Origin: Synergistaceae bacterium
GTDB taxonomy: Bacteria > Synergistota > Synergistia > Synergistales > Aminobacteriaceae
Assembly: GCA_012523155.1 (NCBI GenBank)
Contig: JAAYJB010000058.1
Location: forward strand, 1-12,748
Direction: 5' to 3'
Length of the DNA: 12,748 nucleotides
Shown here: one piece after another, positions 2,704-12,748 of the stretch
Position numbering within the stretch: the first letter of the stretch is position 1
Layout: every line of letters starts with the position of its first letter
Notes under the pieces: generated by a model
What the model was told of the DNA's origin: nothing
Seen by the model: only the letters and a program-made list of their open reading frames with translations
Databases searched by the model: none
Position numbers and translations under genes: made by a program

Positions 2704-2725
2704 CCGGTATTTCAGGAGCGCAGTG

Positions 2726-3016
2726 ATGGAAAAAGTCCTGAAGACCCTTCGCAAGTGGTGGGAGGTTTTTGTCCTCTTTCACCACGGTACTTTTATTGAC
2801 AAAAGGATGGCCGTGGTCCGCAAGGAGGCATTTGACATCAACGACAACCTGATGCTTCTCCTGTTCGGAGATTTTCTCGGCATCCCGAACCCCGTCTCAT
2901 ACTACATGCTCGAGCTTCTTCCATATGTAGCAGATGATCTGGAAACCTGGGAGCGCAGGATCCAGAACCGGAAGTTCATTATCGCAGAAAAGGCCGCTCA
3001 ATATGACTTCGACTGA
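2726..3016 (+). CDS. Small protein paired with ArsA-family ATPase (cory-CC-star-like)
   Basis: 96 residues from the ATG at 2726. The GTG at 2723 is also in frame, but AGGAG at 2714-2718 is better spaced (7 nt) for the ATG. The N-terminal third is basic and aromatic (KTLRKWWEVFVLFHHG). The centre contains LLLFGDFLGIPNPVSYYMLE, followed by a Leu/Asp/Trp-rich helix. This central block matches my memory of the small proteins that NCBI calls cory-CC-star, encoded next to ArsA-family ATPases and named for a C-terminal Cys-Cys. Here the protein ends in QYDFD with no cysteine anywhere, so it would be a divergent member. No signal peptide is seen. It ends 13 nt before the preferred ArsA start, which supports a functional pair. 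The biochemical role is unknown; the gene call is strong and the family name comes from recall. Confidence 0.75.
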   Translation: MEKVLKTLRKWWEVFVLFHHGTFIDKRMAVVRKEAFDINDNLMLLLFGDFLGIPNPVSYYMLELLPYVADDLETWERRIQNRKFIIAEKAAQYDFD

Positions 3017-9126: not shown

Positions 9127-9624
9127 ATGCCGGAGACAACCAGTTGGTCCCTTGTTCAGACGGAGTTCCCGGAGGACTGCAATATCATCCTGGGACAGAG
9201 CCACTTCATCAAAACGGTTGAGGATCTTTTCGAGGCACTCGTAACATCCTCTCCGTCTCTCAGGTTCGGTATCGCTTTTTGCGAGGCGTCGGGAGACTGT
9301 CTTGTACGGAGGGAAGGGAACGATGAGGAACTTGTGGCCGTTGCGGTTGAGAATGCGAAAAAGATTGCGGCCGGTCACTCTTTTTTTATTGTGCTCAGGA
9401 ACGGATACCCAATTAATGTCCTGAACAGGGTGAAGGACTGCCAGGAAGTATGCCGTATCTTTGCAGCGACGGCAAACCCCCTTCAGGTCATCATATGCGA
9501 GAGCAGCCAGGGCAGGGGCATCGCAGGGGTTATTGACGGATTCAGGCCTGTCGGTATTGAAACGGATGACGATGTGGAGAACAGAAAACAACTCCTCCGC
9601 TCGATCATCGGCTATAAACGGTAA
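9127..9624 (+). CDS. Adenosine-specific kinase family protein
   Basis: 165 residues, full length for this small family (Pfam Adenosine_kin, formerly DUF355), first described from archaeal structures and also found in Thermotogota, Synergistota and some Clostridia. Conserved blocks are seen in order: LRFGIAFCEASGDCLVR (45-61), GNDEEL (64-69), AGHSFFIVL (82-90), YPINVLNRVKDCQEV (94-108), IFAATANPLQVI (111-122), GRGIAGVIDG (129-138) and the closing RKQLLRSIIGYK. It has no P-loop and is unrelated to ribokinase-type adenosine kinases. The family name reflects adenosine binding, and the biological role is poorly established. No signal peptide, so cytosolic. The Shine-Dalgarno AGGGAGGAGA (about 9113-9122) is strong. 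It stands 45 nt after the HAD gene and 112 nt before the hydrogenase-type operon. Confidence 0.9.
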   Translation: MPETTSWSLVQTEFPEDCNIILGQSHFIKTVEDLFEALVTSSPSLRFGIAFCEASGDCLVRREGNDEELVAVAVENAKKIAAGHSFFIVLRNGYPINVLNRVKDCQEVCRIFAATANPLQVIICESSQGRGIAGVIDGFRPVGIETDDDVENRKQLLRSIIGYKR

Positions 9625-9736: not shown

Positions 9737-10102
9737 ATGAAATTGCGGGACATGGTTCAGGGTATCAGGGCGGACGTCTTATACGGTGAGGAACTGCTGG
9801 ACTCCATAGACATAGAATATGCGTACGGGGCCGATCTCATGAGCGACGTGCTCGCATTTGCCCGTCCCGGATCGCTTCTTCTCACCGGACTGACGAATAT
9901 CCAGATTATCAGGACGGCCCAGATGCTTGATATACCGGCAGTAGTCTTCGTAAGGGGAAAAAAGCCCCAGGAAGCTGCTGTCAAGCTGGCTTCCCAGATC
10001 AAAATGCCGGTTTTGCTCTGCCAGATGAGTATGTTTGAAACCTGCGGAATTCTATTCGCGAAAGGCGTGCTGCCTTGTCATATTCCTGACAGAGGGGTGT
10101 AA
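9737..10102 (+). CDS. DRTGG-domain protein, first gene of the hydrogenase-type operon
   Basis: 121 residues, a stand-alone DRTGG-type domain. The core resembles the regulatory domain found in Pta- and CBS-domain proteins: DSIDIEYAYGADLMSDVLAF (22-41), SLLLTGLTNIQIIRTAQMLD (46-65) and IPAVVFVRGKKP (66-77). The first six residues (MKLRDM) give a typical short N-terminal lead. There is no kinase, CBS or acetyltransferase partner domain, so it probably binds a small ligand or a partner protein; the ligand is unknown. The frame is open upstream to 9461 through the kinase gene, but GAGGAGG (9722-9728) lies 8 nt before the ATG at 9737 and sets the start. It leads a five-gene operon; the next start is 3 nt beyond its stop. 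A paralogous domain is encoded three genes later. Confidence 0.85.
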   Translation: MKLRDMVQGIRADVLYGEELLDSIDIEYAYGADLMSDVLAFARPGSLLLTGLTNIQIIRTAQMLDIPAVVFVRGKKPQEAAVKLASQIKMPVLLCQMSMFETCGILFAKGVLPCHIPDRGV

Positions 10103-10105
10103 ATA

Positions 10106-10582
10106 GTGTTCGAGGCTCCCTACGTCGAAGAATATTCCGTACAGGCAGGAGATTTCACCGCCATCGGTGAGGCCTCCACTAAATTCCGGGCGACACTGAA
10201 GATGCTCGGTATACCGTCGGAAATTGTCAGACGGGCGGCGGTGGTGGCATATGAAGCTGAAATGAACGCCCTTATTCACGCAGGAGGCGGGACCCTCTCC
10301 ATGACTGTTACACCCGATCACCTTGAAATCAGGGCCGCTGACAGGGGGCCTGGCATTCCCGACATAGCGCTTGCGATGCAGGAGGGATATTCCACCGCTT
10401 CGGACGAGATCCGTGAACTTGGTTTCGGGGCAGGGATGGGGCTTCCCAACATAGAACGGAATTCGGATACGATGGTAATTGACACTGAAGTAGGGGCGGG
10501 TACTGTTCTCATGGCAACAATAAGATTTTCTGCCGCAGAAAATCAAAAGTCCGGAGAAGGCAGACAGGCAGCGGAGCAATAA
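10106..10582 (+). CDS. GHKL-type ATPase of the anti-sigma regulatory factor (RsbW/RsbT-like) group
   Basis: 158 residues, a single HATPase_c domain. The ATP-binding boxes are clear: N box EAEMNALIH with Glu50 and Asn54, G1 box DRGPGIPD (79-86), and G2 box GFGAGMGLPNI (106-116). This is the set used by RsbW/SpoIIAB/RsbT-like serine kinases and related anti-sigma switches. No histidine-containing dimerisation domain, receiver or transmembrane helix is present, so it is not a sensor histidine kinase. Its partner, whether a sigma factor, an anti-anti-sigma (STAS) protein or the neighbouring iron-sulfur protein, is not visible here. Start is GTG at 10106, with AGAGGGG (10091-10097) 8 nt upstream and overlapping the end of the previous gene. 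It lies between the DRTGG gene and the hydrogenase-like gene with gaps of 3 and 18 nt. Confidence 0.88.
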   Translation: MFEAPYVEEYSVQAGDFTAIGEASTKFRATLKMLGIPSEIVRRAAVVAYEAEMNALIHAGGGTLSMTVTPDHLEIRAADRGPGIPDIALAMQEGYSTASDEIRELGFGAGMGLPNIERNSDTMVIDTEVGAGTVLMATIRFSAAENQKSGEGRQAAEQ

Positions 10583-10600
10583 CGCAAAGGGGTGGTAGAA

Positions 10601-11920
10601 ATGTCCGGCGGTATAAGAGTCCGTGAGGAGCGATGCAGGGGATGTGCAAACTGCATTAAGTCATGTCCCACCGAAGCTATACGTGTCATCGACGGCGTCA
10701 TAAAAATCATCCCGGAACTTTGCATAGACTGCGGCGAGTGCATCAGGAGCTGCAGGGACAAAGCCATAACGGTCAACGAAGACGAGTGGGAGCTTATCCG
10801 GTCAAGGGAAGGGCTTGTGCTGATGGCTGACCCGACGTTTTATGTCCAGGTAGGCGCCTATTCCCGCCCCAGGCTTATGAAGGAAGCTTTGGAACAACAC
10901 GGGCTGCGGGACATTGCCGAGTATGCATCCATTGCCTTCGACCTTGCTGCATACGCGTCTGCCGGTATCATCCGCGAAGGCGGAGACAACCTTCCTTATA
11001 TTTCCACATATTGCCCTGCCGTCATTCGCCTTATACAGATAAACTTTCCGGAACTCACGGGAAGGATCCTTCCCGTAGAGTCACCGCTCGAAACAGCTGT
11101 AACAATCTGGAGGGAAGCCACGGGAGCGAAGGAAAAAGTGACCCTTGTCGCTCCCTGCCCTGCAAAGGCCACCCTTGTCCGAAACCCCGTGGGAAGGAAA
11201 AAAAGCTCCATCGAATACGTAGTAAGCGTCAAGAGGGTCATCCGGGATCTTCTCGCATATAACGTGAAAGTTACGGGAACCCGCACGAAGGCTATCAGCA
11301 GAAGATGGCTGCTCTGGTCTATTTCAGGAGGCGAATCAAGGCACATAGCGTCTTTCTGCGACAAGGGGCTCACCTCGGTCTCGGTCTCAGGACTAAGGAA
11401 CACCATGGACCTGCTCAACGAACTGGAGCTGGGCCGTCTCAATGGTGTTGACTTTGTCGAATGCCGTGCGTGTGATCTCGGGTGCATCGGCGGAACGGCA
11501 ACATACGAATCCCGTTTCCTTTCGCAGCTTCGCCTCGAAAACATTGAGACGGAGTGGATGCCGTCACAGGATGAGATGGAGGAGATAAGAGCCTTGTATG
11601 ACAAGGATATCTGGCGGCTTGTTTCTCCGATCCAGGTCAAGGAACGCCTGCCTCTCTCCCAGGATCTCGGGGAGGCGATGGCGAAGCTCAGGGAGATGGA
11701 TGCCATCTACGCGAGTCTTCCTCACATCGACTGCGGGGCATGCGGCCGCCCAACCTGCCGTGCACTTGCAGAGGATATCGTGCGGGGACAGGGCAAAGAA
11801 ACAGACTGTGTATTCAAGCTCAGGGATCGTATAAGTCTCCTCAGCGGAGAGATCCGCGATCTCTCGTCAAGGCTTCCCCATACCATCCATAATTCCGGAA
11901 AAAGGAGGCCGTCTTCGTGA
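10601..11920 (+). CDS. [FeFe]-hydrogenase-like iron-sulfur protein with altered active-site motifs
   Basis: 439 residues. Two ferredoxin-type [4Fe-4S] motifs come first (Cys12-15-18-22 and Cys41-44-47-51). The hydrogenase large-subunit domain follows with STYCPA (Cys138), APCPAK (Cys186, Lys189) and CRACDLGCIGG (Cys291, Cys295), the four positions that hold the H-cluster in true [FeFe]-hydrogenases. A C-terminal Fes-type motif (Cys378-381-386-403) should bind a third [4Fe-4S] cluster. By motif alignment with Clostridium CpI, the proton-relay cysteine (TSCCP) is Tyr137, the relay glutamate after motif 2 is Leu192, and the two methionines lining the cluster are Ala184 and Arg289. Fast H2 turnover is therefore doubtful; sensing or electron transfer is more likely. 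The small-subunit domain is absent. Start ATG at 10601 fits AAAGGGG (10586-10592) better than the GTG at 10592. The stop overlaps the next start by 4 nt. Confidence 0.9.
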   Translation: MSGGIRVREERCRGCANCIKSCPTEAIRVIDGVIKIIPELCIDCGECIRSCRDKAITVNEDEWELIRSREGLVLMADPTFYVQVGAYSRPRLMKEALEQHGLRDIAEYASIAFDLAAYASAGIIREGGDNLPYISTYCPAVIRLIQINFPELTGRILPVESPLETAVTIWREATGAKEKVTLVAPCPAKATLVRNPVGRKKSSIEYVVSVKRVIRDLLAYNVKVTGTRTKAISRRWLLWSISGGESRHIASFCDKGLTSVSVSGLRNTMDLLNELELGRLNGVDFVECRACDLGCIGGTATYESRFLSQLRLENIETEWMPSQDEMEEIRALYDKDIWRLVSPIQVKERLPLSQDLGEAMAKLREMDAIYASLPHIDCGACGRPTCRALAEDIVRGQGKETDCVFKLRDRISLLSGEIRDLSSRLPHTIHNSGKRRPSS

Positions 11921-12258
11921 AGATTTCAGAGATAGTTCGGCAGCTCGACCTGAAAACCTATTCCGCGGGAGATGGTGAACGGGAGATCTCCGGAGTTGTT
12001 TCGGGAGACCTGCTCAGCTTTATCATGGCCGAGGCCAGGGAAGGATGGATGTGGATCACCGTTCAGGTCCATCTCAACGTGGCTGCAGTAGCTGTGCTGA
12101 AGGACGTTCCCTTCGTCCTGCTCGCATCAGGGAGGCAGCCGGAAAAAGATCTTGTGGAGCGGTGTGCCGCTGAAGGAATTACCCTTGCGGGCACCCCCTT
12201 TTCCTCCTACGAGGCTGCCGGAAGACTATGGGAAACAGGGCAGAGACTGCGGGAATGA
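11917..12258 (+). CDS. Second DRTGG-like domain protein
   Basis: 113 residues. Its middle aligns by eye with the first operon gene: GVVSGDLLSFIMAEAREG (26-43) matches the YGADLMSDVLAFARPG stretch, and LKDVPFVLLASGRQPEK (61-77) matches MLDIPAVVFVRGKKPQE. The helix and tail that follow (SYEAAGRLWETG) correspond to MFETCGILFAKG. The two are therefore diverged paralogs, and some tools may label this one HPr-kinase N-terminal-like. The ligand and partner are unknown. Start is GTG at 11917, overlapping the hydrogenase-like stop by 4 nt, with AAAGGAGG just upstream (about 11900-11908). Its own stop overlaps the PHP start by 4 nt. Such tight coupling suggests roughly equal synthesis of the hydrogenase-like, DRTGG-like and PHP proteins. 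Confidence 0.82.
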   Translation: MKISEIVRQLDLKTYSAGDGEREISGVVSGDLLSFIMAEAREGWMWITVQVHLNVAAVAVLKDVPFVLLASGRQPEKDLVERCAAEGITLAGTPFSSYEAAGRLWETGQRLRE

Positions 12259-12748
12259 CTCTCTCTCCCTACTGGGTCGACCTGCACCTTCACACTGTTC
12301 TTTCACCGTGCGGCGAACTGGAGATGGGAGCCCCCGAGATAGTTGAAGCCTACAGGAATGCAGGCATATCGCTCTGTGCCGTGACCGATCACAATGCTGC
12401 AGACAACGTCCCTGCAGTCTCAGGCGCAGCCGGAGGGAACCCAAAAGTTCTTGCCGGGATGGAAGTGCAGACATCCGAGGATATCCACATAGTGGTCATA
12501 TTTCCTTGTCATGAAGAGGTAATGAATTTTCAGGCCTGGCTGTGGAAAAAGATGCCTCCCGTAATGAACAGGCCGGAAATATTCGGAGACCAGCTCATCA
12601 TAAACAGCGGGAACGGAATAATCGGAGAGCAGGAAGTCCTTCTCGTCCAGGGCGCCGGGTACAGCGCAGACGAGGTGGCATTGGAAGCGGGGGGGCGGGG
12701 AGCGATCGTCATCCTGGCCCATATGGACAGGCCCTCCTTTTCATACGA
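12255..12748 (+). CDS. PHP-domain metal-dependent phosphoesterase, partial (runs off the window)
   Basis: 164 codons are visible and the frame is still open at the window end, so the gene is cut at its 3' side. The PHP signature is clear: VDLHLHT (8-14) with His11 and His13, VTDHN (43-47) with Asp45 and His46, AGMEVQTSED (67-76) with Glu70, and ILAHMDRPSF (153-162) with His156. These are the expected ligands of a two- or three-metal phosphoesterase centre. Single-domain PHP proteins hydrolyse small phosphoesters such as nucleoside 3',5'-bisphosphates or histidinol phosphate; the substrate here is unknown. The start ATG overlaps the previous stop by 4 nt and has only a weak Shine-Dalgarno, implying translational coupling. 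It is the fifth gene of the hydrogenase-type operon. Confidence 0.87.
   Translation, partial: MTLSPYWVDLHLHTVLSPCGELEMGAPEIVEAYRNAGISLCAVTDHNAADNVPAVSGAAGGNPKVLAGMEVQTSEDIHIVVIFPCHEEVMNFQAWLWKKMPPVMNRPEIFGDQLIINSGNGIIGEQEVLLVQGAGYSADEVALEAGGRGAIVILAHMDRPSFSY

Follow-up and report, generated by a model that had tools for sequence, protein, structure and literature searches.

The window analysed here, an entire contig (G000:C190) of 12,748 bases from a Synergistaceae metagenome-assembled genome (MAG) that is 93.6% complete, ends in a tightly packed module of five genes on the forward strand. The first gene (9737..10102) encodes a stand-alone DRTGG-domain protein, DRTGG1 (Pfam DRTGG, E = 4.8e-6, with a 32-sequence alignment), and is followed after 3 nucleotides (nt) by a gene with a GTG start (10106..10582) encoding a GHKL ATPase/kinase related to SpoIIAB (HATPase_c, 3.8e-8). 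After a further 18 nt comes the gene of the central Fe-S protein (10601..11920), a group D-like [FeFe]-hydrogenase homologue referred to below as HydS (Fe_hyd_lg_C, 3.1e-21, as well as PF04060 and 4Fe-4S domains). Its most likely start is the ATG at 10601, located behind AAAGGGG and favored because the closest homologues are 438-440 amino acids (aa) long; an alternative in-frame GTG is found at 10592, and the HydS residue numbers given here are counted from it. HydS overlaps by 4 nt with DRTGG2 (11917..12258), a diverged DRTGG paralogue recognized through its family profile, which in turn overlaps by 4 nt with a PHP phosphoesterase gene that starts with ATG and lacks its 3′ end (12255..12748). 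The PHP reading frame is open at 12748 because the contig ends there, and the Pfam PHP score (5.5e-5; 24 bits) of this cut open reading frame (ORF) is slightly below the cut-off of 26.4 bits. The genes, their order, and their spacing were already given in a first-pass annotation of the DNA and were confirmed from the ORFs.

The same annotation considered the five genes to be a co-expressed module, which is in agreement with our survey of gene neighborhoods. The complete set is present in 38 of 40 Synergistota genomes (neighborhoods L045-L084), picked from 91 HydS-positive genomes at one to several per genus; the other two, L062 and L081, lack DRTGG2 and PHP. Among 148 sampled Clostridia genomes, 72 carry a group D-type HydS (E below 1e-80), and 47 of the 58 loci examined from these contain the complete set, in all 47 with the same gene order. 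The remaining 11 Clostridia loci comprise five broken by a contig end (G199, G203, G272, G316, and G328), three covered for merely 1.5 kb downstream (G209, G270, and G298), and three with DRTGG2 and without a PHP match (G198, G225, and G240). In Parabacteroides distasonis (NZ_OY725779.1), the five genes are annotated piecemeal and followed by a second ATPase gene. Since the full set recurs at these frequencies in Synergistota and Clostridia, its conservation goes beyond chance, and the module is a real, widely conserved, co-transcribed-looking signaling operon present in three phyla. The relatives that could be named are Synergistaceae or Synergistales MAGs plus two Clostridia MAGs. No description of the five-gene module was found in the open-access literature; the matches were a passage on an AAA-DRTGG gene, the paper on T. 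mathranii, and excerpts of a study on Rex that place a PHP gene among predicted sites. None of the titles listed in these searches dealt with group D proteins lacking HydEFG.

HydS contains two N-terminal 4Fe-4S motifs (Cys 15/18/21/25 and 44/47/50/54), an H-domain (PF02906) with the cubane cysteines Cys 141, 189, 294, and 298, and a C-terminal Cx2Cx4Cx16C motif (Cys 381, 384, 389, and 406), and it gave no Pfam match to a PAS domain. Such a plan, including the C-terminal Cx2Cx4Cx16C motif, defines group D (M2e) in the available part of PMC8163306, and its domain plan suggests that HydS is a homologue of the group D "putative sensory" [FeFe]-hydrogenases. The first-pass annotation correctly stated that the module has no established function, but it did not identify this named class for the central protein. 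TamHydS from Thermoanaerobacter mathranii (group D/M2e), as described in the accessible parts of PMC8163306 and PMC13104023, has the same two N-terminal 4Fe-4S motifs, H-domain, and Cx2Cx4Cx16C motif, also lacks a PAS domain, and is encoded next to a histidine kinase-like ATPase gene. The neighbors mentioned in those parts are this ATPase gene and an AraC gene, and DRTGG and PHP partners are unmentioned there. The HydS residues Tyr140, Ala187, Lys192, and Arg292 correspond to positions 299, 353, 358, and 497 of CpI; HydS therefore differs from TamHydS by its Tyr299, its Arg497, and an Ala in place of Ser/Thr at 353, and its genome has no recognizable maturation genes. Although a hydroxyl residue (Ser/Thr) at position 353 is a criterion for group D, this position is occupied by Ala in the window HydS and by Ser, Thr, Ala, or Val in the other Synergistota rows of our alignment; all 58 Clostridia rows have one of the two hydroxyl residues. 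The group C HydS proteins (T. maritima HydS and the HfsB/HfsC system; PMC11837493, in the portion available) are also putative sensors with an H-domain and a C-terminal Fe-S cluster. However, they have a PAS domain and a serine-phosphatase-type partner, whereas the window protein lacks the former and is paired with a kinase-type ATPase.

The first-pass annotation proposed that the module senses the redox or H2 state. For this organism, the sensing of H2 through an H-cluster is not supported by the gene content of the genome. HydE and HydG gave no match at E ≤ 0.001, and HydA gave none over the cut-off. The one HydF match is weak (7.9e-26) and resembles the sub-threshold hits to GTPases that all genomes gave. 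In the 185 Synergistota genomes searched, HydE exceeded the cut-off in 104, HydF in 97, HydG in 81, and HydA in 109; of the 14 control genomes, which include Thermotoga maritima, one passed in every search. HydS is present in 91 of the 185 genomes. Forty-one of these 91, including the genome of the window, have none of HydE, HydF, and HydG and no HydA over the cut-off, even with obvious maturase fragments scored as present; 32 others have all three maturases and 18 have some. The 41 genomes belong to 17 genera and 7 families, and the maturase-less state is found in 19 of the 45 HydS-positive genomes with at least 95% completeness and at most 5% contamination, including the single-contig genomes G029 and G031. 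By comparison, only 6 of the 109 HydA-positive Synergistota lack all three maturases (Fisher p = 2e-11, uncorrected for kinship). In Clostridia, HydF exceeds the cut-off in 57 of the 72 HydS-positive genomes and is missing from 15. HydE and HydG were searched in 20 of the 148 Clostridia genomes: neither exceeded the cut-off in the 15 without HydF, where sub-threshold matches include a HydE-like one in G271 (202 bits) and a HydG-like one in G272 (182 bits), and both were found in 5 of 5 HydF-positive controls. Because maturases and HydA are missing from the window genome and from near-complete relatives, the H-domain would be expected to carry at most [4Fe-4S] clusters. We tentatively suggest, with slightly less than even confidence, that a hydrogenase fold has given up its diiron site here and senses redox state with [4Fe-4S] clusters only, as part of a kinase operon attached to NAD-linked hydrogenases of either metal.

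One alternative is that HydS is a true H2 sensor, which holds a full H-cluster and signals the H2 level through the ATPase, as has been proposed for group D as a whole; in the genomes without HydEFG, the cluster would be assembled by an unrecognized route. According to PMC8163306, TamHydS can be loaded with a synthetic diiron site, is then active on H2, and behaves much like a sensor, and PMC13104023 reports that H2 alters its secondary structure. The finding in PMC13104023 that its C-terminal cluster is unresponsive to H2 favors the redox sensor instead. The presence of HydF in most HydS-positive Clostridia would also be in line with an H2 sensor. The active site gives arguments to both sides. 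The four cubane cysteines are retained in 97 of 97 group D rows, whereas the diiron pocket varies, in favor of a cubane-only H-domain. All 38 Synergistota rows, which represent 37 loci and the window, retain these cysteines along with the proton-path residues E252 and E289 proposed for TamHydS, as expected of a working H-cluster protein, and D265 of TamHydS is replaced by Ser in 30 of the 38. On the other hand, Tyr at 299 and Arg at 497, two positions that frame the diiron site, are found in all 38 Synergistota rows; of the 58 Clostridia rows, 44 have Ala at 299 and none has Arg at 497, and the Parabacteroides row has Phe at 299 and Arg at 497. Together with the missing maturases and HydA, these substitutions make an H2 sensor, in our opinion, unlikely.

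Several observations nevertheless weigh against an H-domain limited to [4Fe-4S] clusters, the retention of E252 and E289 being one of them. We considered whether the Tyr and Arg substitutions track the loss of maturases and rejected this, because all 19 Synergistota rows that have one or more maturases carry the same residues; those residues alone are thus no marker of maturase loss. Ala299 is retained in 10 of the 15 maturase-less Clostridia rows. Lys358, the only residue to differ, is conserved in all 19 of the Synergistota rows that have any maturase vs 9 of 18 rows without, a count that leaves out the row of the window (which keeps the residue) and represents few independent clades; in Clostridia, it is found in 40 of 43 HydF-positive rows vs 11 of 15 rows without HydF. 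Its presence in all the maturase-bearing Synergistota rows may reflect an H-cluster that is still bound there. In a tree of HydS, all 38 Synergistota rows group together (SH-aLRT 99) on a long branch among Clostridia group D-type rows, and the maturase state switches at least 15 times (Clostridia scored by HydF alone); this was a quick tree with a warning of long branches, rooted with one group C row and built without TamHydS. Overall, the active-site residues are mixed evidence, which would fit a cubane-only H-domain without proving one.

The maturase argument has its own counterexamples. Among the 41 Synergistota genomes, sub-threshold matches were seen for HydG in G096 (HydG-like, 161 bits) and for HydE in G011, G014, G096, G178, G179, and G184 (E of 4e-4 to 6e-17). 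The six HydA-positive genomes without maturases (G033, G086, G112, G157, G160, and G164; loci L172-L177), none of which has HydS, encode HydA proteins that look intact or nearly so: five have the full group A motifs, and that of G086 (L177) has an altered L3 stretch. One of them, G112, is a single contig of 1.68 Mb with 99% completeness. Either their maturases are undetected or there is another way of H-cluster assembly, and such an unseen route would also suit the H2 sensor described above. In at least 4 of the 15 maturase-less Clostridia (G199, G203, G286, and G322), a HydA with group A motifs, cut ahead of the last motif in G286, adjoins the module; the HydA data for Clostridia refer to the loci beside the module. 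These four are likely to be incomplete bins or to use an unseen assembly route. The presence of HydA in maturase-less genomes means that missing maturases are no proof of a missing H-cluster, and the Clostridia half of the maturase argument is weakened accordingly. Taking this into account, we lowered our confidence in the [4Fe-4S]-only sensor from even to slightly below even and raised that in the H2 sensor slightly and that in a nucleotide circuit (see below) marginally. A further set of Synergistota (G105, G108, G113-G116, G121, G166, and G169) has HydE, HydF, and HydA but no HydG over the cut-off; most of these genomes are nearly complete, and a variant [FeFe] maturation is possible there.

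The genes that surround the module suggest a link with NAD-linked hydrogenases of both metals. A match to PF00374, the family of the [NiFe] large subunit, was found in 41 of 41 maturase-less HydS-positive Synergistota vs 8 of 32 with full HydEFG, although many of the matches are partial and may be other members of the family. The nickel-ligand motifs were confirmed at both ends in L071, L075, and L159-L164, of which L162, from the genome of the window, is a different relative of 411 aa; in L070 and L077, where the gene is cut, the first motif alone is visible. In L070, L071, L075, and L077, the gene order is module-NuoE-HATPase-NuoF-NuoG-HoxY-HoxH, and in G179 (L072 with L163) FocA lies between PHP and NuoE in an otherwise identical run, so that the module precedes a HoxEFUYH-like [NiFe] hydrogenase in five Synergistota genomes. 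In these, a large subunit that is complete has the nickel-ligand motifs RICGIC and DPCLSC. NuoE, NuoG, FocA, and HATPase were named by Pfam from single representatives, HoxH by PF00374 and the motifs, and NuoF and HoxY by reading of the sequence. The order after NuoF differs in L073, L074, and L078. For Clostridia, NuoE/NuoF-type genes lie on the module strand in 26 of 40 larger loci, and a HydA with group A motifs (TSCSP being allowed besides TSCCP and TSSCP) is encoded in 18 of the 40, 17 of which also have NuoE/NuoF-type genes. The first-pass annotation raised the presence of hydCBA downstream. The contig ends at the module, and in two genomes of the same genus as the window (L045 and L046), the next gene is reversed and reads as hisIE. 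Genes reading as RadA or HisIE often follow the module in other Synergistota as well. In this phylum, NuoE/NuoF-type genes near the module in 8 of 40 loci speak for a link to hydrogenases, and the 32 of 40 loci that have none on the module strand in the stretch read speak against it.

Three further observations concern these neighborhoods. Many hydrogenase operons encode a second, different GHKL ATPase family (about 180-190 aa), with the gene flanked by NuoE and NuoF or else directly behind PHP (L071:10985-11557 and L157:9867-10400 are examples). Downstream matches of 597-599 aa in Synergistota were rejected as HydA; they match through ferredoxin repeats, the three that were aligned have gaps at the H-cluster motifs, and one that was read fully is NuoF-like. 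A formate dehydrogenase beside the module in L052 was also rejected, as the gene after FocA reads as gyrase A.

It could also be proposed that the module is not a sensor but takes part in the assembly, repair, or activity control of NAD-linked hydrogenases, with the ATPase as a chaperone-like motor; HydS and its partners would then supply Fe-S clusters or bind to the NuoE/NuoF diaphorase. Such a role would be consistent with the NuoE/NuoF-type genes near the module, with a neighborhood that holds whether the catalyst is [FeFe] or [NiFe], and with the second HATPase gene inside many hydrogenase operons. However, signaling and nucleotide chemistry are the more usual context of a SpoIIAB-type domain and of a PHP enzyme, most Synergistota modules have no such genes nearby, and 64 of the 109 HydA-positive Synergistota do without HydS. 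We therefore regard an assembly factor as quite improbable. In one Synergistota genus (g10; 43 genomes), most genomes have HydA over the cut-off and none has a group D HydS, from which it follows that the module is dispensable for [FeFe]-hydrogenase as such.

The partner proteins suggest signaling. The first-pass annotation called the ATPase anti-sigma-type, and this is supported in part. Its best solved relative by profile is SpoIIAB, the anti-sigma F factor (PDB 1til; E = 6.7e-9), and the NCBIfam spIIAB model matches 28 of 28 members of the ATPase family, more than any other family. The N, G1, and G2 ATP boxes (YE-E-N---H, D-GPGI, and GFGAGMGL) are intact and invariant in the 28 sequences. 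However, the window ATPase, at 41.5 bits, is far below the spIIAB equivalog cut-off of 135 bits, and the five genes include no sigma factor or STAS gene (the search for STAS covered the module), which counts against a SpoIIAB-like partner-switching scheme. The stretch GPGI--A-Q-GYST presumably resembles RsbT.

DRTGG domains are also present in CBS pyrophosphatases. In DRTGG1, the invariant stretches are DLMSDV, TGL-N-Q, RTA, and FVR-K-P, and in DRTGG2 they are DL-S, W-T, and N--A-A-L. DRTGG2 alone gives a sub-threshold DRTGG match (0.031), but 20 of 30 aligned members of its family match DRTGG at E ≤ 0.1 (best 4.7e-6), and its profile aligns with that of DRTGG1 with an hhalign probability of 99.2. 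An invariant Ser (36/34) and an invariant Thr (50/48) occupy matching positions in DRTGG1/DRTGG2. On the basis of these residues, the DRTGG proteins are candidate phosphoacceptors. The PHP metal-ligand motifs DLH-H, DHN, E-Q--EDIH, H-DR, and SD-H are conserved in a 44-row alignment, with the window PHP cut ahead of the final motif, SD-H. A defense system was considered for the locus and rejected, as the one PADLOC match (E = 0.0032) is confined to the start of the PHP gene.

These partners might instead form a small-nucleotide circuit, in line with the messenger cleared by PHP in the first-pass annotation. An adenine nucleotide or dinucleotide would be the ligand of the DRTGG proteins and the substrate of PHP, and HydS and the ATPase would control its turnover. 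The best match of both DRTGG profiles among solved structures, E = 0.005 and 0.05, is the DRTGG domain of a CBS pyrophosphatase (PDB 3l2b), the PHP metal-ligand motifs are intact, and the gene upstream of the module (9127-9624), which ends 112 nt before DRTGG1, encodes a member of the Adenosine_kin family (PF04008). However, the structural matches are weak and cover about 40 residues, the window DRTGG proteins differ from 3l2b in being stand-alone, about 111-125 residues long, and of two paralogous forms, and neither a ligand nor a synthetase was found; a nucleotide circuit is, in our view, very doubtful. Homologues of the PF04008 gene are found in 22 of 44 clustered loci, often together with a HAD phosphatase gene (14 of 44).

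Considering the maturase-less genomes, the partner proteins, and the neighboring hydrogenase genes, we suggest as a working explanation, short of an even chance, that the H-domain is an Fe-S redox sensor that would drive a SpoIIAB-like kinase in the service of NAD-linked hydrogenases, the sensing and the phosphotransfer being inferred. HydS might dock on a NuoE/NuoF-type diaphorase or respond to how reduced the ferredoxin/NAD(H) pool is, and its state would switch the kinase between active and inactive. Both DRTGG proteins could be the phosphoacceptors or nucleotide-binding partners of the kinase, in the position of the STAS protein in partner switching, and the PHP enzyme would reset or execute the output. 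The target would probably be an NAD-linked hydrogenase, of the [FeFe] HydABC type in many Clostridia and of the [NiFe] HoxEFUYH type in several Synergistota.

The genome of the window, which lacks HydEFG, carries a second gene pair of this kind on contig C162. A group C-type HydS with a PAS domain (L085:2118-3827, reverse strand) overlaps by 4 nt with a SpoIIE phosphatase gene (L085:940-2121, reverse strand). This arrangement parallels HfsB/HfsC, where, in the portion of PMC11837493 available, the loss of the PAS-bearing HfsB alters fermentation and HfsC resembles serine phosphatases. The same genome thus has a kinase as partner of one H-domain protein and a phosphatase as partner of a second one, which hints at partner switching. 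The rest of the contig (3-8137) encodes, by Pfam, an NAGPA phosphodiester glycosidase, an ArsA ATPase, a DUF386 (YhcH) protein, a carbon-nitrogen hydrolase, a cytidine/deoxycytidylate-type deaminase that reads as TadA, a DegT aminotransferase, and an OmpH-like protein. The ORFs at 1828-2397 and 2723-3016 had no match in the Pfam search, and tRNA and Rfam searches of the window gave no match.

The genomes with HydA and without maturases pose a separate question. How group D proteins signal is described as an open question in the available part of PMC8163306, and the module, whose order is conserved across Synergistota and Clostridia and which is also present in a Bacteroidota species, offers a defined set of partners for it and an obvious candidate circuit. 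Its presence in dozens of genomes without HydA or any recognizable assembly gene points to a signal other than H2 binding at a diiron site there. If the redox-sensor explanation is true, the name "putative sensory hydrogenase" would be wrong for a large part of group D in these bacteria, and a "sensory [FeFe]-hydrogenase" and its four partners would persist where a [NiFe] enzyme replaces the [FeFe] enzyme and its assembly line. In eukaryotes, the H-domain has been reused as a plain Fe-S protein in Nar1/NARF; the module may then be a bacterial case of the same reuse.

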